DNA of 64,000 nt from Thermogemmatispora onikobensis. Its GTDB lineage: Bacteria > Chloroflexota > Ktedonobacteria > Ktedonobacterales > Ktedonobacteraceae. Below the pieces are notes generated by a model that was not told the origin of the DNA, did no database searches, and was given only the letters and a program-made list of their open reading frames with translations. Positions 17,065 through 33,896 of the stretch are shown in pieces. The stretch lies in assembly GCF_001748285.1 (NCBI RefSeq), contig NZ_BDGT01000024.1:1-64000 (forward strand), in the 5' to 3' direction. A program made the translations under genes and the position numbers. Numbering within the stretch: position 1 is the first letter of the stretch; each line of letters begins with the position of its first letter.

Positions 17065-17268
17065 AGAGGGAACGGCTGACGTCTCTGACGAGCGGCGGCG
17101 CCCGAGCCTTCTTTTGCTCAGGTTGCTGTGCTGCTGTGCGCAGGTCTCCCTGTCTTGTTTGCTCGTCTAGATGCTTGCTTATGGCGGCAGGAGCGGCAGT
17201 GGTGGAAGTGTCGCTCGCCATTTCCGCTCTCTGGCTGGCTGGTGCCTGTTCGGCAAAGGAGAGAGCAG

Positions 17269-19065
17269 ATGACCACTGAGGTGCGACGTCAGGCAGCCCC
17301 GGCTGAGCCTGGCCAGATCATTGAAATGGCCTGGGACCCGATTACGCGCATTGTGGGCAGCCTGGGGATCTATACCAAGATCGATTTCAAGAAGCGGCAG
17401 GTGGTGGAGTGCTACAGCACGTCGTCGATCTTCCGCGGCTATAGCATTTTCCTGAAGGGCAAGGACCCGCGCGATGCCCATTTTATCACCAGCCGCATTT
17501 GCGGAATCTGCGGAGATAACCATGCCACCTGCTCGGTCTATGCCCAGAATATGGCCTATGGGGTGAAGCCGCCGGCCCTCGGCGAGTGGATTCTGAACCT
17601 GGGCGAGGCCGCGGAGTATATGTTTGACCACAACATCTTTCAGGAGAACCTGGTCGGGGTCGATTTCTGTGAGCAGATGGTGCGGGAGACCAATCCTGGG
17701 GTCTGGGAGCTGGCTCAGAAGACTGAGGCTCCGCATGCCAAAGACCACGGTTATCGCACGATTGCCGATATTATGCGGGCGCTTAATCCCTTCACGGGCG
17801 AGTTCTATCGCGAGGCGCTGCAGATGAGCCGCCTGACGCGCGAGAAGTTTTGCTTGATGGAGGGGCGCCACGTGCATCCGTCGACGCTCTATCCCGGCGG
17901 CGTAGGGACGGTGGCGACAGTCCAGCTCTTCACCGACTATCTGGTGCGCCTGATGAAGTATGTGGAGTTTATGAAGAAGGTTGTGCCGCTGCATGACGAC
18001 CTCTTCGATTTCTTCTATCAGGCGCTGCCGGGCTACGAAAAGGTAGGGCAGCGTCGCATTCTGCTCGGCTGCTGGGGCTCGTTCCAGGACCCCGAGGTCT
18101 GCGACTACGAGTATCGCACGATGGATAAGTGGGGACGGGCGATGTTCGTGACGCCGGGCGTGGTGGTCGATGGTGAGCTGGTGACGACCAGCCTGGTCGA
18201 TATCAATCTGGGTATCCGCATTCTGCTGGGTAGCTCCTACTACGAGGATTGGGAGAACGAGCGGACCTTTGTGGATCGCGATCCGCTAGGTAATCCGGTT
18301 GATCAGCGTCATCCCTGGAACCAGACGACGATCCCGAAGCCGCAGAAGCGCGATTTCAAGGGGAAGTATAGCTGGGTAATGTCGCCGCGCTGGTACGATA
18401 AGCGTACGGGGCAGTATCTGGCGCTGGATACCGGCGGGGGGCCGCTGGCGCGCCTGTGGGTGACGGCGCTGGCGGGTTTGGTCGATCTGGGGGGCTACAT
18501 TAAGGCGACCGGCCACAGTGTGAAGATCCGCTTGCCGAAGACGGCGCTCAAGCCCGAGGTCGAGTTTGAGTGGAAGATTCCGAAGTGGAGCAATGCCCTG
18601 GAGCGCGATCGGGCTCGTTCCTACTTCCAGGCCTATGCGGCGGCGGTGGCGCTCTATTGCGTGGAGAAGGCGCTCGCCGAGATCCGCGCGGGCCGCACGA
18701 AGACGTGGAGCGATTTTACGGTGCCCAAGGAGGCGATCGGCTGCGGCTTCCATGAGGCGGTGCGCGGGGTGCTCTCGCATCACCTGGTGATCGAGAACGG
18801 CAAGATTGCCAACTATCACCCCTATCCGCCGACGCCCTGGAATGCCAGTGTGCGCGATGTCTATGGGACGCCTGGCCCCTACGAGGATGCGGTGCAGAAT
18901 ACGCCGATCTTCGAGGAGAATGGTCCCGAGAAGTTTAAGGGCATCGATATCATGCGGGCGGTGCGCAGCTTCGACCCGTGTCTGCCTTGCGGGGTGCATA
19001 TGTATCTCGGCGACGGCAAGGAGCTGGAGGTGGTGCATTCGCCGACCTTCGGGCGCGTGCCGTAG
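17269..19065 (+). CDS. hhyL: Group 1h [NiFe]-hydrogenase large subunit
   Basis: Catalytic subunit carrying the NiFe(CN)2CO centre, 598 residues. Ligand motifs are RICGICGDNHATC (L1, residues about 77-90) and DPCLPCGVH (L2) near the C-terminus. After the L2 histidine a tail of 21 residues remains, to be cut off by the maturation endopeptidase encoded at 22706. ITRIVGSLGIYTKIDF and the long insertion between L1 and L2 fit the actinobacterial/Chloroflexota high-affinity clade. The ATG at 17269 has AAAGGAGAG just upstream; the frame is open another 141 bases but without family similarity. It follows hhyS after about 200 bases. Confidence 0.96.
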   Translation: MTTEVRRQAAPAEPGQIIEMAWDPITRIVGSLGIYTKIDFKKRQVVECYSTSSIFRGYSIFLKGKDPRDAHFITSRICGICGDNHATCSVYAQNMAYGVKPPALGEWILNLGEAAEYMFDHNIFQENLVGVDFCEQMVRETNPGVWELAQKTEAPHAKDHGYRTIADIMRALNPFTGEFYREALQMSRLTREKFCLMEGRHVHPSTLYPGGVGTVATVQLFTDYLVRLMKYVEFMKKVVPLHDDLFDFFYQALPGYEKVGQRRILLGCWGSFQDPEVCDYEYRTMDKWGRAMFVTPGVVVDGELVTTSLVDINLGIRILLGSSYYEDWENERTFVDRDPLGNPVDQRHPWNQTTIPKPQKRDFKGKYSWVMSPRWYDKRTGQYLALDTGGGPLARLWVTALAGLVDLGGYIKATGHSVKIRLPKTALKPEVEFEWKIPKWSNALERDRARSYFQAYAAAVALYCVEKALAEIRAGRTKTWSDFTVPKEAIGCGFHEAVRGVLSHHLVIENGKIANYHPYPPTPWNASVRDVYGTPGPYEDAVQNTPIFEENGPEKFKGIDIMRAVRSFDPCLPCGVHMYLGDGKELEVVHSPTFGRVP

Positions 19066-24012: not shown

Positions 24013-24720
24013 ATGCCCAGAGTGACTATTGCCAGACACATCCTGGCGGCCAATGAGGAGGTTGCGGCAGAGGTGCGCCAACGGTTGGCGGCTGCTGGCG
24101 TGCGCTGCATCAACCTGATGAGTGGTCCGGGCGCAGGCAAGACGACCCTGCTTGAGCGCAGCGTCGCCCGGCTGCGTGGACGACTGGCCATAGGGGTGAT
24201 CGAGGGGGATATTGAAACCAGCCTGGACGCTGAGCGCATGGAGGCCGCCGGGGCCCAGGTAGTACAAATCAATACGCGCGGCGCCTGTCATCTAGAAGCG
24301 CATATGGTGCGCGATGCTTTGGAGGCGCTTGATCTGCAGCGGCTCGACCTGCTCTTCATCGAGAATATCGGCAATCTGGTCTGTCCGGCGGCCTGGGAGC
24401 TGGGCGAGGACCTGCGGGCCGTGGTGGTCTGCACGACCGAGGGCGATGAGAAGCCGGCTAAGTATCCGCAGATCTTTGCCGCCGCCCAGGTGCTGGTGAT
24501 CAATAAGCTGGATCTCTTGCCCTACGTGGACTATGATCCCGAGCGCGTGCGTGCTCAGGCGCTGGCCGTCAACCCAGGGCTGCAGATCTTCACGCTGAGC
24601 TGCCGCAGCGGCGCGGGACTCGACGCCTGGTGTGATTGGCTGCTCTCCTTCGCCGCTCGACCTCCTGCTGTTCCCGCTCAGGCAGCGCCAGTTAGCCAGG
24701 AGGAAGGAGCAGCGTCATGA
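24013..24720 (+). CDS. hypB: Hydrogenase nickel incorporation GTPase HypB
   Basis: SIMIBI-class GTPase that powers nickel delivery with HypA. Its 235 residues carry the P-loop NLMSGPGAGKTTLLE, switch regions GVIEGDIETSLDAERM and GACHLEAHMV (with the conserved cysteine and histidine), LLFIENIGNLVCPA and the guanine-specificity NKLDLLPY. It lacks the His-rich N-terminal nickel store found in some HypB proteins, so nickel storage must be elsewhere. The stop overlaps the HypF start by 4 bases. Confidence 0.95.
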   Translation: MPRVTIARHILAANEEVAAEVRQRLAAAGVRCINLMSGPGAGKTTLLERSVARLRGRLAIGVIEGDIETSLDAERMEAAGAQVVQINTRGACHLEAHMVRDALEALDLQRLDLLFIENIGNLVCPAAWELGEDLRAVVVCTTEGDEKPAKYPQIFAAAQVLVINKLDLLPYVDYDPERVRAQALAVNPGLQIFTLSCRSGAGLDAWCDWLLSFAARPPAVPAQAAPVSQEEGAAS

Positions 24721-27125
24721 GCGAGCACCTTTCCGGAGTCCAGGCCACGATGACAACCCGCCAGCGACAGCGCCTCTCGGTAATGGGCATTGTCCAGGGG
24801 GTAGGTTTTCGTCCCTTTGTCTACGGTCTGGCTCAGCGTCTGGGGCTGGCTGGCTTCGTGCTCAACGATAGCCGCGGGGTCACCATCGAGGTGGAAGGAC
24901 CGGCAGAGGCCCTGACTCGCTTTCGCCAACTGCTGCTGGCCGAGGCGCCGACGCTGGCGCGTATCGAGAGAATCACGGTCGAGATGCTGCCACCCCGGCA
25001 CGAGATGGCCTTTGTAATTGGGCAGAGTCAGGAGGGCCACGAGCGAACCACGCTGGTCTCCCCCGATATGGCCACCTGCGCTGATTGCCTGCGCGAGTTA
25101 TTTGACCCAGCGGATCGTCGCTATCGCTACCCATTCATTAATTGCACTAATTGCGGGCCGCGTTTCACCATCATTCAAGATGTCCCCTACGATCGTGAGC
25201 AGACGACCATGCGCGTCTTCGTCATGTGTCCTGCCTGTCGGGCCGAGTACGAGGACCCGGCCAATCGGCGCTTTCATGCCCAGCCCAATGCCTGCCCGCG
25301 CTGTGGGCCGCGGGTCCAGCTAGAGCTGTGGACTGAGGGGGAGCTGGTCCTCGTGGCCAGCGGCCCAGAGGTCGAGGAGGCGACCCCCATTGAGCAGGTA
25401 GCTCGGCTGCTTACTCAGGGGGCGCTTCTGGCCATCAAGGGCCTGGGCGGCTATCATCTGGCCTGTGATGCCCTCAACGCCGTCGCTGTCCAGCGGCTGC
25501 GGCGACGCAAGCGTCGTGAAGCCAAACCCTTCGCCTTGATGGTACCCGATCTGGAAACGGCGCAGCGTCTCTGCTTTGTCAGCGAGGCCGAGGCGACCTT
25601 GTTACAGTCGCCGCGCCGGCCTATTGTCCTGCTTGAGCAGCGGCCTGCCTCTCCCATCGCGCCCGCCGTGGCCCCGGGCTACCGGACTCTGGGCCTCATG
25701 CTGCCCTATACCCCCTTGCATCATCTCCTGCTGCACGCCTTTGCCCAGGCCCTTCCCGCCGGGCGTCTGCCGGTGCTCGTCATGACGAGCGGCAACCTCA
25801 GTGAGGAACCGATCGCCTACCGCGACGATGAGGCGCGTCAGCGTCTGGCGGCCATTGCTGATGGCATGCTCAGCCACAACCGCGTCATCCACATGCGCTG
25901 CGACGACTCGGTCACGCGCCTGGTGGCTGGAGGCGAGCAACTCCTGCGCCGCTCGCGGGGGTATGTGCCGGAGCCGATCACGCTGGCCTTTGAGCTGCCG
26001 CGTCCGCTACTGGCCTGCGGGGGCCATCTCAAAAACACCTTCTGTCTGGGCAAAGGGCGGCAGGCGTTTGTCGGGCACCACATTGGCGATCTAGAGAACC
26101 TGGAGACCCTGGCCTCCTTCCGCGAGGGTATTCGCCATTTCCAGCGCCTCTTTGGCATCGCACCCGAGGCTGTGGCCTATGATCTGCATCCCGACTATCT
26201 GGCGACCCGCTATGCGCTGGACAGCGACATAGAGCTGCGCCTTGGCGTCCAGCATCACCATGCCCACATCGCCAGTGTCCTGGCCGAGCACGGCCTGAGT
26301 GGGCCGGTGATCGGCATTGCTGCCGACGGGACGGGCTACGGTACCGATGGGGCGATCTGGGGCTGTGAGATCCTGCTGGCCGATCTCTGCGGCTTCGAGC
26401 GCCTGGCCCATCTGGCCTATGTGCCGCTCCCTGGAGGAGAGCAGGCGGTCCGCCAGCCGTGGCGCATGGCGGCGGTCTATCTGGCGCAGACCTACGGCGA
26501 GCGCTTTCTCACCCTTGACATCCCCTTCGCGCGGCGTCTCGACCGCAGCACCTGGCGCATTCTGGCGCAGATGATCGCGCGCGGCCTCAACTCGCCGCTG
26601 ACTTCCAGTCTGGGGCGCCTCTTCGATGCCGTCGCCGCCATCCTCGGCCTGCGCGACGAGGTGTTCTATGAAGGCCAGGCGGCCATCGAGCTGGAGATGC
26701 TCGCCAGCGCTGTGCCACCCGACGACCAGCCGTCTTATCCCTACGCTCTCCTGCGTCCTGGTCAGGGACCACTTCAGATAGACGTTTCTCCCCTGCTCAC
26801 CGCGCTGGTCGATGATCTCCAGCGCGGCGGTGAAGTGGCGCGTCTGGCTCGTCGCTTTCATCGCTCGCTGGTGGTCATGTTCAGCGACCTTTGCCAGCGG
26901 ATCAGGGAGCGCACTGGTCTCTCCCAGGTCGCACTCAGCGGCGGCGTCTTTCAGAACCGCCTGCTTCTGGAAGAACTGGTCAACGACTTGCAAGCCAACG
27001 GCTTTCACGTCTATCTCAATCGCCGTGTCCCCCCGAACGATGGCGGTTTGAGTCTGGGGCAACTGGCCGTCGCGGCGGCCCGCCTGGCGGCGGGGAGTGA
27101 ATGCAGCTCTGTATCTGCAAAGTGA
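24717..27125 (+). CDS. hypF: Carbamoyltransferase HypF
   Basis: Makes the cyanide ligand precursor: it carbamoyl-adenylates carbamoyl phosphate and transfers the carbamoyl group to the C-terminal cysteine of HypE. Domain order over 802 residues is acylphosphatase (15-105; GIVQGVGFRPFVYGLAQRL), two zinc fingers (CADCLREL, CTNCGPRF, CPACRAEY, CPRCGPR; about 120-200), a YrdC-like domain (about 215-400) and a Kae1-like domain (about 430-790) with VQHHHAHIASVLAEHG and SGGVFQNRLLLE. The length and motifs are complete. Confidence 0.96.
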   Translation: MSEHLSGVQATMTTRQRQRLSVMGIVQGVGFRPFVYGLAQRLGLAGFVLNDSRGVTIEVEGPAEALTRFRQLLLAEAPTLARIERITVEMLPPRHEMAFVIGQSQEGHERTTLVSPDMATCADCLRELFDPADRRYRYPFINCTNCGPRFTIIQDVPYDREQTTMRVFVMCPACRAEYEDPANRRFHAQPNACPRCGPRVQLELWTEGELVLVASGPEVEEATPIEQVARLLTQGALLAIKGLGGYHLACDALNAVAVQRLRRRKRREAKPFALMVPDLETAQRLCFVSEAEATLLQSPRRPIVLLEQRPASPIAPAVAPGYRTLGLMLPYTPLHHLLLHAFAQALPAGRLPVLVMTSGNLSEEPIAYRDDEARQRLAAIADGMLSHNRVIHMRCDDSVTRLVAGGEQLLRRSRGYVPEPITLAFELPRPLLACGGHLKNTFCLGKGRQAFVGHHIGDLENLETLASFREGIRHFQRLFGIAPEAVAYDLHPDYLATRYALDSDIELRLGVQHHHAHIASVLAEHGLSGPVIGIAADGTGYGTDGAIWGCEILLADLCGFERLAHLAYVPLPGGEQAVRQPWRMAAVYLAQTYGERFLTLDIPFARRLDRSTWRILAQMIARGLNSPLTSSLGRLFDAVAAILGLRDEVFYEGQAAIELEMLASAVPPDDQPSYPYALLRPGQGPLQIDVSPLLTALVDDLQRGGEVARLARRFHRSLVVMFSDLCQRIRERTGLSQVALSGGVFQNRLLLEELVNDLQANGFHVYLNRRVPPNDGGLSLGQLAVAAARLAAGSECSSVSAK

Positions 27126-27240: not shown

Positions 27241-27513
27241 ATGTGTCTGGGAATTCCTGGTCAAGTGCTTGAAATCGTAGACGAGGCCAACTCGATTGCG
27301 CGTGTTGACGTCTCGGGCGTCAAGCGCAACGTCAGTGTTGCCCTGGTGCGCTCGGAAGGAATTGCCCCCGGCGACTGGGTGCTCATCCACGTCGGCTTTG
27401 CCATGAGCAAAATCGATGAAGTGGAGGCGCAGGAGACGCTCAAAGCGCTCCAGCTAATGGGGGACGTCTACACCGATGAGCTGAAGCTTCTGGGCTCCAG
27501 CCAGATCGAGTAG
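27241..27513 (+). CDS. hypC: Hydrogenase assembly chaperone HypC
   Basis: Carries the Fe(CN)2CO unit with HypD and docks it to the large subunit. It is 90 residues beginning MCLGIPGQVLEI; Cys2, exposed after Met removal, is the iron ligand. HVGFAMSKID holds the second conserved block with its histidine. Upstream in-frame codons were rejected because Cys2 must follow the start; AGAGAGGAG lies at a good distance. A second HypC-like gene follows two genes downstream. Confidence 0.95.
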   Translation: MCLGIPGQVLEIVDEANSIARVDVSGVKRNVSVALVRSEGIAPGDWVLIHVGFAMSKIDEVEAQETLKALQLMGDVYTDELKLLGSSQIE

Positions 27514-27539
27514 TGATGAGGGAGGAGGACGATCAGCGC

Positions 27540-28151
27540 ATGTCTCCAGAGGCGCAAGAACCGCTTGAGGCCGTACTAGAGCGGCGCTTTGGCCTCAGTA
27601 CCAGTCTACCGGCGCTCTTCTTTGAGCGCGAGGCGCCGCGCATCGCCGAAGCCTGCTGGGCGATGGCCCGCCGCTTTCATCAAGGTGGGCGCCTGCTGGC
27701 CTTTGGCAATGGGGCCTGGGCCTCCGACGCACAACACGTCTCGGTCGAATTCGTCCATCCGGTCATTGTCGGCAAGCGCGCTTTACCGGCTCTGGCCCTG
27801 ACCAACGATAGTGCCACGCTCAGCGGCCTCATGGCTGGCGGACGGACTGACAGGCCCTTTAGCGAACAGCTGCGTGTCCTGGCGCGGCCCCAGGATATCG
27901 CCCTCGGCTTCTCGCCAGACGGGTGCTGTGCCAACGTCCTGGCCGCCCTGGCGCAGGCGCGGCAGATGGGCCTGCTCACCCTGGCAATGCTAGGCGGCGA
28001 TGGAGGGTTGATCACTGCCGAGGCCGTCGACTATCGCTTTGTCGTGCCCGCCGACGATCCGCTGGTCATCCAGGAGGTCCATGAAACGCTCTATCACGTC
28101 CTCTGGGAACTGGTGCATGTCTTTTTCGAACACGAGGGGTTGCTGCAATGA
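27540..28151 (+). CDS. GmhA-like SIS-domain protein 1 (phosphate loops degenerate)
   Basis: 203 residues from ATG 27540, which has GGGAGGAGG 11 bases upstream (starts at 27513 or 27516 are also possible). Overall it matches sedoheptulose-7-phosphate isomerase (GmhA), and the four zinc-site positions are kept: His and Glu in SDAQHVSVEF, and Gln and His in VIQEVHETLYH. Both sugar-phosphate-binding loops are altered: GNGGS is GNGAW, and STSGNS is SPDGCC. It is therefore unlikely to bind a sugar phosphate alone. It is encoded between hypC and the HypC-like gene, and overlaps the latter by 4 bases. SIS proteins occur in related hydrogenase operons; their role is unknown. Confidence 0.82.
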   Translation: MSPEAQEPLEAVLERRFGLSTSLPALFFEREAPRIAEACWAMARRFHQGGRLLAFGNGAWASDAQHVSVEFVHPVIVGKRALPALALTNDSATLSGLMAGGRTDRPFSEQLRVLARPQDIALGFSPDGCCANVLAALAQARQMGLLTLAMLGGDGGLITAEAVDYRFVVPADDPLVIQEVHETLYHVLWELVHVFFEHEGLLQ

Positions 28152-28459
28152 AACCGGAATCCGAGCGCATCTCTCCCGCTCTGTCGCCAAGCGTGCCATT
28201 GCGACCGCTCTGTCAGCCCGATCCCGAAGGGCACTGTCCCACCTGTGCGGACGAGGCGGTGGCGGTGACGGTTCTCAGTGTCGACCAGGCCGCCGGCCTG
28301 GCCTGCGTCCGTCTGGGCCTGGGCGAGGCCCTGATCGACATCACCCTGCTTGGGGAGGTGCAGCCGGGTGAGCGCCTGCTTGTGCATGGCGGCGTTGCCC
28401 TGGAGCGGCTCGACGAGGCGGCGGAGCCGGCTCGTGAGGAGCACGGTCCCTCTGCCTGA
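28148..28459 (+). CDS. HypC/HupF-like protein with Cys-rich N-terminus
   Basis: 103 residues. The C-terminal 65 follow the HypC fold (DEAVAVTVLSVDQAAG, then LGEVQPGERLLVHGGVALERL, including the histidine seen in HypC). The N-terminus lacks the Met-Cys start that HypC needs to hold iron. Instead it has CQPDPEGHCPTC about 22-33 residues in, which could be an alternative metal or thiol site. It may be a chaperone specialised for another step or partner. It overlaps SIS protein 1 by 4 bases and is followed by SIS protein 2 after 48 bases. Confidence 0.78.
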   Translation: MKPESERISPALSPSVPLRPLCQPDPEGHCPTCADEAVAVTVLSVDQAAGLACVRLGLGEALIDITLLGEVQPGERLLVHGGVALERLDEAAEPAREEHGPSA

Positions 28460-28507
28460 GCTGTTCAGCCTGGGTCACCTTCACGAAGGAAAGCGAGCGA
28501 GCCAGCC

Positions 28508-29216
28508 ATGAGCCATGACCTTGAGCATAGCGAGCCGGTCCAAGGCTCGGAGTACGATCGCCTCTTTTATCCCTATCTCTTTGCGGGTGGCAAGGTCAGT
28601 CTGGAGGAGGTCCTCAGCCAGGTCCGGCATTCCACCCTGGAGAAGTGCCGCGAGGTCATCGCCCTGCGTCAGGCGACCCTGGCCATCGCGCGCGAGGCGC
28701 TGCTGGCGGCGGCCCAGGCGATGGCCCGGGCCTTCGCTGCCGGGGCGACCCTGCTGGCCTTTGGCAATGGGGGCAGTACCACCGATGCCCAGGACCTGGT
28801 GACCGAGCTGCTCCATCCGCCCTTCTCTCACTGGCGGGCGCTGCCGGCCATTGCCCTCACCAACGACATCGCCGTCGTCACGGCGGTGGGCAACGATGTC
28901 GGCTTCGAGAATATCTTTACGCGCCAGGTCATCGCCTTCGGGCGACCCGGCGATATTGCCGTGGGCATCTCTACCAGCGGCAACTCGCTCAATGTCCTGC
29001 ACGCCTTTGAGCAGGCCAAAAAACAGGGCTTGCTCACTGTGGGCCTGGCTGGCTACGACGGCGGCAAAACCAGGCGCTCGCCGGCGGTGGACTACTGTCT
29101 CGTCTCCCCCGGCGATCACATCCCGCGCATTCAGGAGGCGCAGGCCACTGTCTACCACGCCCTCATCGAGCTGGTGCAGGCCCTCTTAGCCGCACAGAAA
29201 GGGAGAGCTGACAGCG

Positions 29217-29230
<14 letters not shown>
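28508..29230 (+). CDS. GmhA-like SIS-domain protein 2 (phosphate loops intact)
   Basis: 240 residues with a 45-residue N-terminal extension and then a GmhA-type SIS domain. The phosphate-binding loops are intact: FGNGGS (85-90) and GISTSGNS (153-160), as is AVGNDVGFENIF. Of the zinc-site positions, the first His is replaced by Asp (D96 in TDAQDLVTEL), while E100, Q209 and H217 remain. The changes are roughly complementary to those in SIS protein 1, which suggests that the two form a mixed oligomer. Its C-terminus overlaps the HypD start by 14 bases. Confidence 0.84.
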
Positions 29231-30356
<1,126 letters not shown>

Positions 30357-30488: not shown

Positions 30489-31607
30489 ATGGACGTCAAG
30501 CCCGGTTCTGAGCAGGAGGCGGCGCGGCTCGACGCGGTCCTGCAGAAAATGGAGCGCGTCCGGCAGGCGCGCCGACACAAGTTCTATTTGCGTGACGAGC
30601 GCATCACGCTCAGTCACGGCAGCGGTGGCAAGGCCACCCATAACCTGATTGAGGGCGTCTTTGCCCCGGCCTTCTCCAATCCACTGCTTGACGCGCTGGA
30701 GGATGCGGCGGTCTTCTCACTGGACGGCAGCGGTCTGCAGCTGGCCTTTACGACTGACACCTATGTGGTCAGTCCCCTCTTCTTTGCCGGCGGCGACATC
30801 GGCAAACTGGCCGTGCACGGCACCATCAACGATCTGGCGATGGCCGGGGCTCAACCGCTCTATCTATCAGCGAGCTTCATCCTGGAAGAGGGCTTTTCCA
30901 TTGCGGAGCTGCGACGCATCGTCGCCTCCATGCAGGAGGCGGCCAGTCAGGCCGGGGTGGCCATCGTCACCGGCGACACAAAGGTCGTGCAGCGCGGCAA
31001 AGGGGATGGCGTCTTCATCAATACCGCCGGCGTCGGACTGCGACGTGCGCACTGGCCGCTCGGGCAGACCTGTCTGCAGCCGGGCGACGCTGTGCTCCTC
31101 AGCGGCAGTGCGGGCGACCACGGGATTGCCATCATGCTGGCGCGCGAGACCCTCGATATCGAAACCGATATCCAGAGCGATACGGCGCCGCTGCATACGC
31201 TGGTAGCGGCCTTGTTCGAGGCTCTTGGCGAGCGTGTGCATTGTCTGAAAGACCCGACCCGCGGCGGCGTGGCCACGGCCCTCAACGAAATGGCCCTGGC
31301 CTCCGAAGTGGCCATTGGCCTTGACGAGCAGGCGATCCCCGTGCATCCCGGAGTGCGTGGCGCCTGTGAGATCCTGGGACTCGACCCGCTCACCATTGCC
31401 AACGAGGGCAAGTTGCTGGCTGTGGTGGCCCCCGAAGCGGCAGAGCAGGCCCTGGCCGTCATGCGCGCACATCCTCTGGGACGAGAGGCGGCTATCATCG
31501 GCAGCGTCCAGGCCGAACCGCCCGGCATCGTCTTTCTGCGCACGGAGATCGGCGGTATGCGTGTCCTCGATATGCTCGTCGGTGATCCGCTCCCCCGCAT
31601 CTGTTAA
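30489..31607 (+). CDS. hypE: Hydrogenase maturation protein HypE
   Basis: PurM/AIRS-family dehydratase that converts its C-terminal carbamoyl-thiocarboxamide to thiocyanate with ATP, giving the cyanide ligands. It has 372 residues. The family block ITLSHGSGGKATHNLI, GDIGKLAVHGTINDLAMAG, VTGDTKVV and LKDPTRGGVATALNEMA are all visible, and the protein ends in PRIC with the essential terminal cysteine. About 40 extra N-terminal residues precede the core. AAAGGAGGAAGGG precedes the ATG. It is the last gene of the hydrogenase operon. Confidence 0.96.
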   Translation: MDVKPGSEQEAARLDAVLQKMERVRQARRHKFYLRDERITLSHGSGGKATHNLIEGVFAPAFSNPLLDALEDAAVFSLDGSGLQLAFTTDTYVVSPLFFAGGDIGKLAVHGTINDLAMAGAQPLYLSASFILEEGFSIAELRRIVASMQEAASQAGVAIVTGDTKVVQRGKGDGVFINTAGVGLRRAHWPLGQTCLQPGDAVLLSGSAGDHGIAIMLARETLDIETDIQSDTAPLHTLVAALFEALGERVHCLKDPTRGGVATALNEMALASEVAIGLDEQAIPVHPGVRGACEILGLDPLTIANEGKLLAVVAPEAAEQALAVMRAHPLGREAAIIGSVQAEPPGIVFLRTEIGGMRVLDMLVGDPLPRIC

Positions 31608-31641: not shown

Positions 31642-31672
31642 AGCGCTCGCCTGAAGCTAGAAGGTGAGCGCT
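31642..31672 (+). terminator. Hairpin after hypE
   Basis: AGCGCTCGCCT (31642-31652) pairs with AGGTGAGCGCT (31662-31672) over 11 positions including one G-T pair, with a 9-base loop. It lies 35 bases after hypE. No T-run follows, so it may be a processing or partial termination structure. Confidence 0.45.
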
Positions 31673-31819
31673 ATGCTCATTCCGGGAAGCCCTTCTCTAC
31701 CTGTGAGCAGCCTCCTATATCATCAGAAGTCACAGATATTGAGCAATATAAATAGAGGGGGTCTGGCGTTTCTATTACGTAGAAAGCTCGCTGTCGTAAT
31801 ATGCTTGCAGGAGAACAAC

Positions 31820-32743
31820 ATGCTAGAATCATCGTTTCTATTGCCTGACAGGGGCCGAATCAGTACTTCTCAGCGGCAGAACCTCGTGAGGAGCTGGCTC
31901 GGCAAGCAGCTGCTGGGGCTACTGCTCGCTATGGGGTTACTCCTGGCCGGTGGGAGAGTGGCCCTGGCCGAGAGCGTCACTGTCAGCGACAGAGCAGGGG
32001 TCTTGGATGTGGCTCGTGTCAAGAGCGAGGGGGCGAAGTTACCCTATCCGTTGGAGGTCGATACGACCAACAGCTTCAGCGGCAGCCAGGCAGACTTTGA
32101 GGGCTATGCGCGTGGACGGGTGAGTGCAGCCGAGCTGCTAATTGTGATTGCCATCGACACGGTCCATCGCTGGGTCTATATTGAGTCGGGCAATGCGGTC
32201 CCGCTCTCAGATAGCGAGGCGGAGGATGCCTACACGGCCTTCAAGGAGCACTACCGCGATGGGAGCTACACGGGGGCAACGCTGGCGGCCATCCAGTCGC
32301 TGGAAGAGAGCCTGACCGGGCTGACCGAGACTTCATCGCCTGATGGATCGTCAGGTAGCGTCAATCAAGGCTTTGATTGGACACGGGTGGTCTGGCCTGG
32401 CTGTTTCTGTATCTCTACTGTCGCCATTTTCTTCTTAGCCGTTGGGGCTGCTGCCAATGAGGATGCAGCTCGGCAGCGTAGGAGGTATCGAGGAGGTAAA
32501 TCCAGCACTGGCTTTGGGAGAAGCAGCTATGGAGGAGGCTTCAGCGGCACTGGAGGAGGAGCCGGTTGGGGCTTCAGCGACAGCGGTGGGAGTGCAGGAG
32601 GGAGCTTCAGCGACAGCGGTGGGAGTGCAGGAGGGAGCTTCAGCGACAGCGGTGGGAGTGCAGGAGGGAGCTTCAGCGACAGCGGTGGGAGTGCAGGAGG
32701 GAGCTTCAGCGACAGCGGTGGAGGAGCTGGCGGGAGCTTTTAG
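31820..32743 (+). CDS. Secreted/membrane TPM-domain protein with Ser-Gly repeat tail
   Basis: 307 residues. A signal-like hydrophobic segment (LLGLLLAMGLLLAGG, about 37-51) ends in ALAESV. A TPM/YgcG-type domain follows (SVTVSDRAGVLDVARV, then LLIVIAIDTVHRWVYIESG). Next comes a membrane helix (CFCISTVAIFFLAVGAAA) and a Gly/Ser-rich tail with five 11-residue units of the type FSDSGGSAGGS. Other TPM proteins act in photosystem II repair or as phosphatases; the role here is unknown. The start at 31820 has CAGGAG upstream. It is a paralogue of the next gene. Confidence 0.75.
   Translation: MLESSFLLPDRGRISTSQRQNLVRSWLGKQLLGLLLAMGLLLAGGRVALAESVTVSDRAGVLDVARVKSEGAKLPYPLEVDTTNSFSGSQADFEGYARGRVSAAELLIVIAIDTVHRWVYIESGNAVPLSDSEAEDAYTAFKEHYRDGSYTGATLAAIQSLEESLTGLTETSSPDGSSGSVNQGFDWTRVVWPGCFCISTVAIFFLAVGAAANEDAARQRRRYRGGKSSTGFGRSSYGGGFSGTGGGAGWGFSDSGGSAGGSFSDSGGSAGGSFSDSGGSAGGSFSDSGGSAGGSFSDSGGGAGGSF
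32573..32737 (+). repeat. Five 33-base coding tandem repeats
   Basis: Five copies of a 33-base unit beginning TTCAGCGACAGCGG, in frame, encode FSDSGGSAGGS. The first four are identical at DNA level and the fifth diverges, which indicates recent expansion. Confidence 0.9.
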
Positions 32744-32867
32744 TTGGGCAGTGTGGATAGGGCCGAACCTTGCTGTCAACCCCGGCCCTAGATCATCCGT
32801 ATAAATAGCGTGGCATGGAGCAACAAAGTGCGCCATGATAGGGCAAAAAGAGGAGGGGAACGTATTC

Positions 32868-33896
32868 ATGATTCTCACACAAGCACCATCTAGTGGGCCA
32901 GATGCTGATCAGCAAAGGGGGCCGTTCCGGTCTGCTCGCCCTCGTAGGTTCAGTGTACTGCGGCCACTACTGGCGCTACTACTCGCCGGCTTCCTGCTCA
33001 TGCTGACCAGCGCAGCTGCCCTGGCCGATAGCGTGACCATCAGTGATGGGGCCGGCGTTCTTGATAAAGGTCGCGTCCAAAGCGAAGCGGCAAAACTGCC
33101 CTACCCCATCGCTATCTATACGACCAACTCCTTCACTGGCAGCCAGTCCGACTTTGAGGCGCGCACACAAAGCCATGTCACCAACTCGCGTCTCATTGTC
33201 ATTGCTATCGATACTGTTCATCACTGGATGTACATCAAGTCTGGCTCGCAGGTGCCGCTTTCCAACAGCGCCGCCCAAGACGCCTACAATGCCTTCAAAG
33301 ACAACTACAACAATGGGGACTATACCGGGGCCACGCTAGCGGCGATTCGCTCGCTAGAGGACTCGCTGGCAGCGGCGCGTAGCGGTGAAGGAGGCTCACC
33401 AGCCAGCTCCGGGGCTGGCGGTCTCCTATCGGGGGGTCTGGGCACGCTCTGCTGTCTTGGTCTGTTGGTCTTGATCATCGGGGGAATCATCTTCGCTGTC
33501 GTCCGGCGGCGCTCTGGCCAGAGCTGGGGTTGGGGGCGCAGGAATGTCCCCTACGAACCGACGCCTCCCGGGGGCTACCCGTACCAGGGTCCCTATCAGG
33601 GAGGGTATCCTCCTAACTATTACCCACCCAACCAGGGCGGGGGCATGAATCCCTGGGCTGCCGGTGGCCTCGGTGCCCTCGGTGGCGGCCTGATTGGCTA
33701 CGAGCTTGGCAAGATGGCTGGTGAGGGAGAGGCCCAACATCATGAAGCTGGCTTCGCCGGTGATCCCGGCCCGGGTGGGGGCGGAGACTTTGGGGGCGGC
33801 GGAGACTTCGGTGGAGGAGCTGGCGGAGACTTTGGGGGCGGTGGAGACTTTGGGGGCGGTGGAGACTTCGGCGGTGGCGATGGCGGCAGCTTCTAA
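32868..33896 (+). CDS. Secreted/membrane TPM-domain protein with Gly-Asp-Phe tail
   Basis: 342 residues, paralogous to the previous gene. A signal segment (LLALLLAGFLLMLTSAAALA) comes first, then a TPM domain (VTISDGAGVLDKGRV, LIVIAIDTVHHWMYIKSG, AQDAYNAFKDNYNNGDYTGA with its conserved ending). A membrane helix (LCCLGLLVLIIGGIIFAVV) follows, then a Pro/Tyr/Gly-rich segment and a tail of GGGGDFGGG repeats. The ATG at 32868 is preceded by GAGGAGGGG. It is likely the same transcription unit as the first TPM gene, 124 bases downstream. Its biological role is not evident. Confidence 0.78.
   Translation: MILTQAPSSGPDADQQRGPFRSARPRRFSVLRPLLALLLAGFLLMLTSAAALADSVTISDGAGVLDKGRVQSEAAKLPYPIAIYTTNSFTGSQSDFEARTQSHVTNSRLIVIAIDTVHHWMYIKSGSQVPLSNSAAQDAYNAFKDNYNNGDYTGATLAAIRSLEDSLAAARSGEGGSPASSGAGGLLSGGLGTLCCLGLLVLIIGGIIFAVVRRRSGQSWGWGRRNVPYEPTPPGGYPYQGPYQGGYPPNYYPPNQGGGMNPWAAGGLGALGGGLIGYELGKMAGEGEAQHHEAGFAGDPGPGGGGDFGGGGDFGGGAGGDFGGGGDFGGGGDFGGGDGGSF

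Follow-up and report, generated by a model that had tools for sequence, protein, structure and literature searches.

Two GmhA-like SIS proteins encoded in a hydrogenase maturation operon of Thermogemmatispora onikobensis probably share one composite active site

A 64,000-nucleotide stretch of the Thermogemmatispora onikobensis genome (Chloroflexota; contig NZ_BDGT01000024.1, positions 1 to 64,000, here called the window) carries a hyp operon with two genes, SIS1 and SIS2, whose products resemble the zinc-dependent isomerase GmhA. Judging from their sequences, the two proteins very probably form a heteromer with one composite active site. In the proposed mechanism, SIS1 and SIS2 would form an obligate heteromer whose ancestor was a homomeric zinc aldose-ketose isomerase resembling GmhA. 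Within the heteromer SIS2 would give both sugar-phosphate loops and Gln, and SIS1 the His/Glu/His zinc ligands. Each SIS1:SIS2 interface would hold one complete site, and the reciprocal site would be dead. Together with HypC2, the HypC-like protein encoded between them, the pair would act as a unit in NiFe cofactor assembly of aerobic, high-affinity-type (group 1h, 2a-like) hydrogenases. Taken as a whole, this explanation (obligate heteromer, composite site and joint action with HypC2 in cofactor assembly) is fairly probable; that the two proteins form a complex, bind zinc and a phosphosugar, catalyse a reaction and take part in maturation is predicted. The three genes are located as follows.

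27513..28151, + strand: SIS1, GmhA-like, zinc half kept and both sugar-phosphate loops lost (Pfam SIS_2, 1.3e-12; NCBIfam gmhA, 101.7 bits)
28148..28459, + strand: HypC2, HypC paralogue with a CPTCADEA motif (Pfam HupF_HypC, 5.1e-08)
28508..29230, + strand: SIS2, GmhA-like, loop half kept and first zinc His replaced by Asp (Pfam SIS_2, 1.4e-19; NCBIfam gmhA, 145.7 bits)

Two chains contribute to a GmhA site: one brings the two loops and Gln175 (the loop half), the other His64, Glu68 and His183 (the zinc half). In Neisseria gonorrhoeae GmhA one monomer provides the zinc ligands H61, E65 and H183 and its neighbour provides Q175, which is stated likewise for Burkholderia pseudomallei (PMC5387315). 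The original prediction described GmhA sites as built across subunits, and the four zinc ligands do come from two chains (PMC5387315). In a Mycobacterium tuberculosis GmhA modelled from the B. pseudomallei structure, the loops and Gln that hold the substrate belong to one monomer and the Glu to another (PMC7705670). Each site of B. pseudomallei GmhA lies at a three-chain interface, with half-of-sites working (PMC5705639), and its zinc-binding residues span two chains (PMC11056994). Because the GmhA site is shared between chains in this way, the losses in SIS1, which keeps the zinc half, and in SIS2, which keeps the loop half, are complementary.

Window SIS1 and SIS2 were aligned with GmhA of B. 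pseudomallei and Campylobacter jejuni. At the GmhA motifs GNGGS, DAQH...E, STSGxS and Q...H, SIS1 reads GNGAW, DAQHVSVEF, SPDGCC and QE...YH, with the four zinc positions kept and both loops altered. SIS2 reads GNGGS, DAQDLVTEL, STSGNS and QE...YH, retaining the loops, Glu, Gln and last His, with Asp in place of the first zinc His. The alignment reproduces what had been predicted for each protein: all four zinc positions and no loops in the first, both loops and Asp at the first zinc His in the second. Neither polypeptide alone holds all zinc ligands and both loops, SIS1 being without the loops and SIS2 without the first His. Both proteins belong to the Pfam family SIS_2; their scores given above stay below the NCBIfam gmhA cut-off (TIGR00441, 209 bits), and the DiaA family (PRK10886, cut-off 352 bits) is not reached either (55.6 and 91.2 bits).

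Related pairs were scored at 11 site positions, divided into loop half and zinc half. Loci are referred to by L numbers and genomes by G numbers. Scanning genomes with a profile of SIS1 gave at least 425 confirmed relatives, the best 80 of which formed an 80-locus set; five pairs with an incomplete SIS2 were dropped, leaving 75 with full data. A second set of 24 pairs was chosen by whole-protein similarity, and 22 were kept after two had been dropped. The third set added 13 pairs, which came from searches of genomes and from one plasmid. Some species are shared between the sets (L137 and L053; several Thermogemmatispora).

The composite site made up of SIS2 loops and SIS1 zinc half was complete in 108 of 110 pairs (74/75, 21/22 and 13/13), the exceptions being L081 and L025, with Ser and Ala, respectively, for the loop Thr. 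The reciprocal site (SIS1 loops and SIS2 zinc half) was never complete in these 110 pairs, all of which have full data. A whole site in each of the two copies had been named beforehand as a result that would speak against the prediction, and 0/110 pairs had a complete SIS1 loop half or a complete SIS2 zinc half. The partition of residues between SIS1 and SIS2 is not due to chance. For comparison, 7 of 10 GmhA-type proteins had 11/11 positions and the other three differed by a single loop Ser to Thr exchange.

Within the 80-locus set, His64, Glu68, His183 and the channel Asp61 were each present in 80/80 SIS1 proteins, and the Gln175 position was occupied by Lys in 61 proteins and by Gln in the other 19. 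In SIS1 the first loop was altered; loop 2 mostly followed one new pattern, S-x-D-G-x-C (Ser in 77, Asp in 70, Gly in 78 and Cys in 74 of 80). In SIS2 each of the seven loop positions was conserved in 77 or 78 of 78 proteins and Gln175 in 78/78 (two or three of the 80 being gapped). His64 was found in 0/77 (Asp 62, Glu 11, others 4; residues other than Asp were Glu, Gln, Asn, Ser and Thr), Glu68 in 9/78, with Leu the commonest residue (43/78), and His183 in 75/77. The SIS2 zinc half was wholly lost in L124 and L182 (Thr, Leu, Tyr), and the SIS1 zinc half was kept there. Every scored pair, from Chloroflexota, Thermus, SAR324 or Actinomycetota, retained His/Glu/His in SIS1, including 35/35 in the 22- and 13-pair sets, which are free of scan-pattern bias. 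The four zinc residues originally ascribed to SIS1 thus hold for the window protein, but Gln is not kept throughout SIS1 and the general set is His/Glu/His. Since the SIS1 loop 2 pattern is mostly kept and position 175 is mostly Lys, rather than showing mere decay, the dead reciprocal site may carry a new ligand. The pair may also have been retooled for a different ligand, mainly via the altered loop 2 of SIS1; the composite site keeps the 11 GmhA positions.

The gene arrangement was equally regular. SIS2 came after SIS1 in 80/80 loci, and in 73 of the 75 loci not counted as fused an open reading frame (ORF) with the HypC2 motif C-x-T-C-x-D lay between them; of the other two, L050 had a C-A-P-C-A-D variant and L064 had none. 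The HypC-like protein that the prediction placed between the SIS proteins, recognized by Pfam as HupF_HypC, is therefore flanked in the same way elsewhere. The order SIS1-HypC2-SIS2 is constant and its position relative to hypCDE varies. HypC2 has no canonical MC start, and a C-x(n)-C-x-T-C-x-D-E-A motif precedes its HypC domain, which suggests a candidate metal site.

SIS1-SIS2 fusions were found in 5/80 loci (L069, L085, L087, L102 and L109), and seven more were found in Thermus, in Sulfobacillus (broken over two ORFs) and in five Chloroflexota loci. HypC2 was located elsewhere in the fused loci L035, L037, L069, L087 and L180; it was not seen in the fused loci L085, L102 and L109, nor were hypC and hypD. 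SIS1 is fused to HypC2 in L124, a Mycobacterium intracellulare plasmid, and one Chloroflexota locus joins all three:

L152, 1492-3105, - strand: SIS1-HypC2-SIS2 triple fusion, one ORF of 538 codons with the domains in operon order

Its HypC and SIS2 domains were assigned by Pfam and its SIS1 domain by a phmmer match. Natural fusions are good evidence that SIS1, HypC2 and SIS2 work together. L086 was rejected as a fusion: the SIS1-SIS2 frame is open, but the intervening stretch holds HypC2 in another frame, so that loss of the SIS1 stop codon or a shift of frame is the more probable cause. A glutaredoxin-like protein is encoded after the fused SIS gene in the hyp operons of Thermus (L035:11097-11357) and Sulfobacillus (L037:11162-11389).

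A fused homologue was modelled with AlphaFold2 from four sequences, and the model was read through its scores and fold matches. It reached a predicted local distance difference test (pLDDT) score of 82 and a predicted template modelling (pTM) score of 0.83. Taken together, its two halves matched the isomerase domain of GlmS, which is a tandem of SIS domains (Z 29.2, 330 residues); the C half matched GmhA (Z 26, root mean square deviation 1.8-1.9), and GmhA ranked top in Foldseek.

Single SIS genes occur between HypF or HypC and HypD on plasmids of Cupriavidus necator (AH operon), Afipia, Mesorhizobium, Sphingopyxis, Methylocystis, Bradyrhizobium and Novosphingobium, and two Chloroflexota loci (L021, L022) likewise have a single hyp-linked SIS gene. 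All 11 positions were intact in 8 of these 9 proteins, that of Methylocystis having Ala for a loop Ser. The C. necator AH-operon gene is H16_RS31885; such singles are annotated only as 'SIS domain-containing protein'. A tree was built from 66 proteins (55 hyp-linked SIS and 11 GmhA). Hyp-linked SIS and GmhA were separated by a branch with support 100/99, and SIS1 (100/99) and SIS2 (99/98) each formed one group. The seven plasmid singles were the closest relatives of SIS2, grouped at 98/95, and the L021 and L022 proteins fell nearer GmhA with weak support (80/61). SIS1 and SIS2 as a single clade were not rejected (approximately unbiased test, p-AU 0.34). The simplest reading of the sequences would be that an intact single ancestor was duplicated and its site divided between the copies. 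With losses that follow the halves of the site, fusions, and intact singles in 8/9, the obligate heteromer with composite sites that had been proposed at the outset is strongly supported by sequence.

The hydrogenase genes of the window lie in one + strand series: large subunit, NifU-like, DUF5947, DUF6084, protease, HypA, HypB, HypF, HypC1, SIS1, HypC2, SIS2, HypD and HypE. Besides the three genes listed above, the following were located.

17128..19065, + strand: [NiFe]-hydrogenase large subunit, presumed group 1h type (Pfam NiFeSe_Hases, 2.9e-64; neighbours NifU, DUF5947 and DUF6084 downstream)
24717..27125, + strand: HypF (ORF; the query matches annotated HypF, in the same place in other hyp operons)
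27241..27513, + strand: HypC1, canonical, with an MCLGIPGQV start (Pfam HupF_HypC, 4e-28)
29217..30356, + strand: HypD (ORF; the query matches loci with annotated HypD in C. necator, Thermus and others)
30489..31607, + strand: HypE (ORF; the query matches annotated HypE in related loci)

The group 1h name is an assumption from operon markers and homology rather than the output of a classifier. The best matches of the large subunit were in Actinomycetota genomes at 66-84% identity. SIS1 may start at the GTG at 27513, with ATG at 27516 or 27540 as alternatives; if the GTG is the real start, the HypC1 stop touches it. The SIS1 stop overlaps the HypC2 start and the SIS2 stop the HypD start. Among the named genomes in the matches listed, the nearest to window SIS1 was Thermogemmatispora (95%).

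A SIS gene inside the hyp operon, beside HypC/HypD/HypF, was found in the window and in related loci, recurring across phyla. HypD was present in 77 of 149 Actinomycetota genomes, and 24 of the 77 matched the window large subunit at E <1e-100; some of these matches were at only 42-46% identity, and we take those subunits to be group 2a-like. The SIS pair was present in 20 of these 24 genomes versus 1 of the 53 others (Fisher p 1.4e-13, kinship ignored). Among 301 Chloroflexota genomes, 32 matched the large subunit (E up to 1e-40), and 18 of them had hyp-linked SIS: 16 pairs, one triple fusion and one single. From this linkage, a role of the SIS module in hydrogenase maturation is considered likely, and the step in NiFe-cofactor assembly first put forward as a possibility is supported by the same gene linkage. 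Hydrogenases of the group 1h and 2a-like kind are known to scavenge H2 from the atmosphere. In C. necator, the product of L034:2189-3244, a gene upstream of that for the AH large subunit, is annotated 'hydrogenase expression protein HypE', although Pfam identifies a hydrogenase small subunit; in L120 and L174, too, a gene so labelled adjoins the large subunit gene.

HypX provides CO under oxic conditions, from formyl-tetrahydrofolate via formyl-CoA, and the source of the CO ligand in [NiFe]-hydrogenases without HypX is given as an open question in the available part of PMC12134894. HypX was sought in 48 genomes from the 80 SIS-pair loci and was present in 3, in each case with no hyp gene within the surrounding 18 kb. 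No HypX was found in any SIS locus examined (flanks mostly ~1.5 to 12 kb), and no SIS in ten hyp operons with HypX (C. necator hyp1, Acidovorax, Variovorax, Bradyrhizobium, Rhizobium, Mesorhizobium, Embleya, Kitasatospora and two further Actinomycetota). Four group 1h operons much like that of the window (L146, L147, L173 and L174) carry HypX and gave no SIS or HypC2 match. Both kinds of hyp set, with SIS and with HypX, occur on one C. necator plasmid. Among the Chloroflexota with the large subunit a HypX match was obtained in 2/32, one a fragment. In genome G204, HypX lies on a 4-kb contig without gene context.

SIS loci are thus operons of the same kind as those with HypX, and lack it; the mutual replacement suggests oxic CO supply by the SIS module. 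The step in maturation favoured here, that the module supplies the CO ligand or a carbon precursor of it in the absence of HypX, is plausible, though less likely than not. The split-site zinc enzyme would then convert a phosphorylated sugar, or another small carbonyl compound of that sort, to a CO precursor, which would be handed to HypC2/HypD; an enediolate intermediate bound to zinc is a mere guess by analogy with GmhA. The SIS1-HypC2-SIS2 module and the proteobacterial single SIS are tentatively suggested as a second, HypX-independent and oxygen-compatible CO-ligand route. In L148 a group 1h operon has a second HypC1 and no SIS, HypC2 or HypX match; to account for its CO, some third source would have to be invoked. 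Full-length HypX relatives also occur away from hyp genes (L130-L132 and L175-L177, the latter three on plasmids) in several Actinomycetota, Mycetohabitans and Acaryochloris. Because of this location HypX is not always a hydrogenase gene, and these relatives may have a role outside hydrogenase.

Several observations weigh against the explanation proposed here. The 80-locus counts of His64 and Glu68 in SIS1 are biased because the scan patterns contained these residues, and the losses are largely inherited: since each of the two proteins makes up a single group in the tree, the 110 pairs do not stand for as many separate events. His183, needless in the model, persists in window SIS2 and in most SIS2 proteins, and Gln175 is mostly kept in SIS1 of Chloroflexota. 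SAR324 (L064) has no HypC2 between its SIS genes. The same large subunit occurs without SIS in 4/24 Actinomycetota and 14/32 Chloroflexota genomes. Not every such genome has SIS or HypX: neither was found in 2/24 Actinomycetota and 12/32 Chloroflexota, many of them drafts, which weakens a strict rule of one or the other. G386 has a full group 1h locus with neither, and G489 also has neither.

The heteromer could instead be a non-catalytic scaffold, an asymmetric chaperone docking HypC2 or HypD, with the kept residues serving metal or ligand sensing. The place of HypC2 between the SIS genes and its fusion to SIS1 or to both would suit such a protein, as would the retooled SIS1 loop 2 with its Asp and Cys; DiaA, a SIS protein with a protein-binding function, is a structural relative. 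A pure scaffold, however, has no need of 11 substrate and zinc positions kept together in one composite site in nearly all pairs, and the window pair scores far under the DiaA cut-off. We regard this alternative as rather unlikely. It is improbable that SIS1 is a decaying pseudoenzyme and that SIS2 alone functions with an Asp-containing metal site. Asp is able to bind zinc, and SIS2 keeps the loops, Gln and usually His183, but the constancy of His/Glu/His in SIS1 across all four lineages, the varied residues at SIS2 position 64, the prevalence of Leu at position 68, and the two loci in which SIS2 lacks all three zinc-half residues and SIS1 retains them argue otherwise. Ordinary GmhA duplicates for heptose biosynthesis, present in the hyp operon by chance, would agree with GmhA being the nearest named family and fold. 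This explanation was rejected as highly improbable on the separation from GmhA in the tree, the scores below GmhA cut-offs and a separate GmhA-like gene with 11/11 positions intact elsewhere in the 5.56-Mb window genome (L003); the hydrogenase linkage recurring across phyla also speaks against it.

The composite-site heteromer shares with GmhA the fold, the zinc and phosphosugar site residues and a site spanning subunits. GmhA usually forms a homotetramer and has all residues encoded by one gene, whereas the SIS pair has the halves in two genes or domains, is linked to HypC2 and hyp genes and stands apart in the tree. The single hyp-linked SIS genes occupy the same place between HypF/HypC and HypD, and their plasmid copies are nearest SIS2, but one gene holds both halves. 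The GlmS isomerase domain and NagB-II also have two SIS domains per chain and are matched by the whole fused model; they are unrelated genes with 9-15% identity, and neither is known to have a GmhA-type shared zinc site. HypX, found in the same kind of operon (of the group 1h operons, some hold the SIS trio and four of those examined hold HypX), is unrelated as a protein and in its chemistry. Trypanosomatid deoxyhypusine synthase and its inactive paralogue, an enzyme unrelated to the SIS pair, contribute complementary site residues to one active heteromer.

The SIS pair is a clean natural example of a shared enzyme site split over duplicated genes, residue by residue, with the split site on one fused chain in some lineages. 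A conserved, unexplained three-part module in hyp operons without HypX also bears on the question of CO-ligand origin. No functional account of hyp-linked SIS genes was found in the open-access PubMed Central (PMC) literature, subscription papers lying outside the search. In the portions available of the papers concerned, a network association of GmhA, HypD and HypE is reported (PMC3231954), a 'SIS domain' cluster is tabulated beside hydrogenase genes without discussion (PMC12727194), and SIS genes are not mentioned in PMC9789115, PMC11540253 and PMC10080006.

Following the hyp operon, positions 31664-33896 of the window encode two TPM-domain-like proteins with glycine/serine-rich repeated tails; one scores at the Pfam cut-off and the other falls below it. 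Beyond them, ORFs resembling ATP synthase genes lie on the opposite strand.

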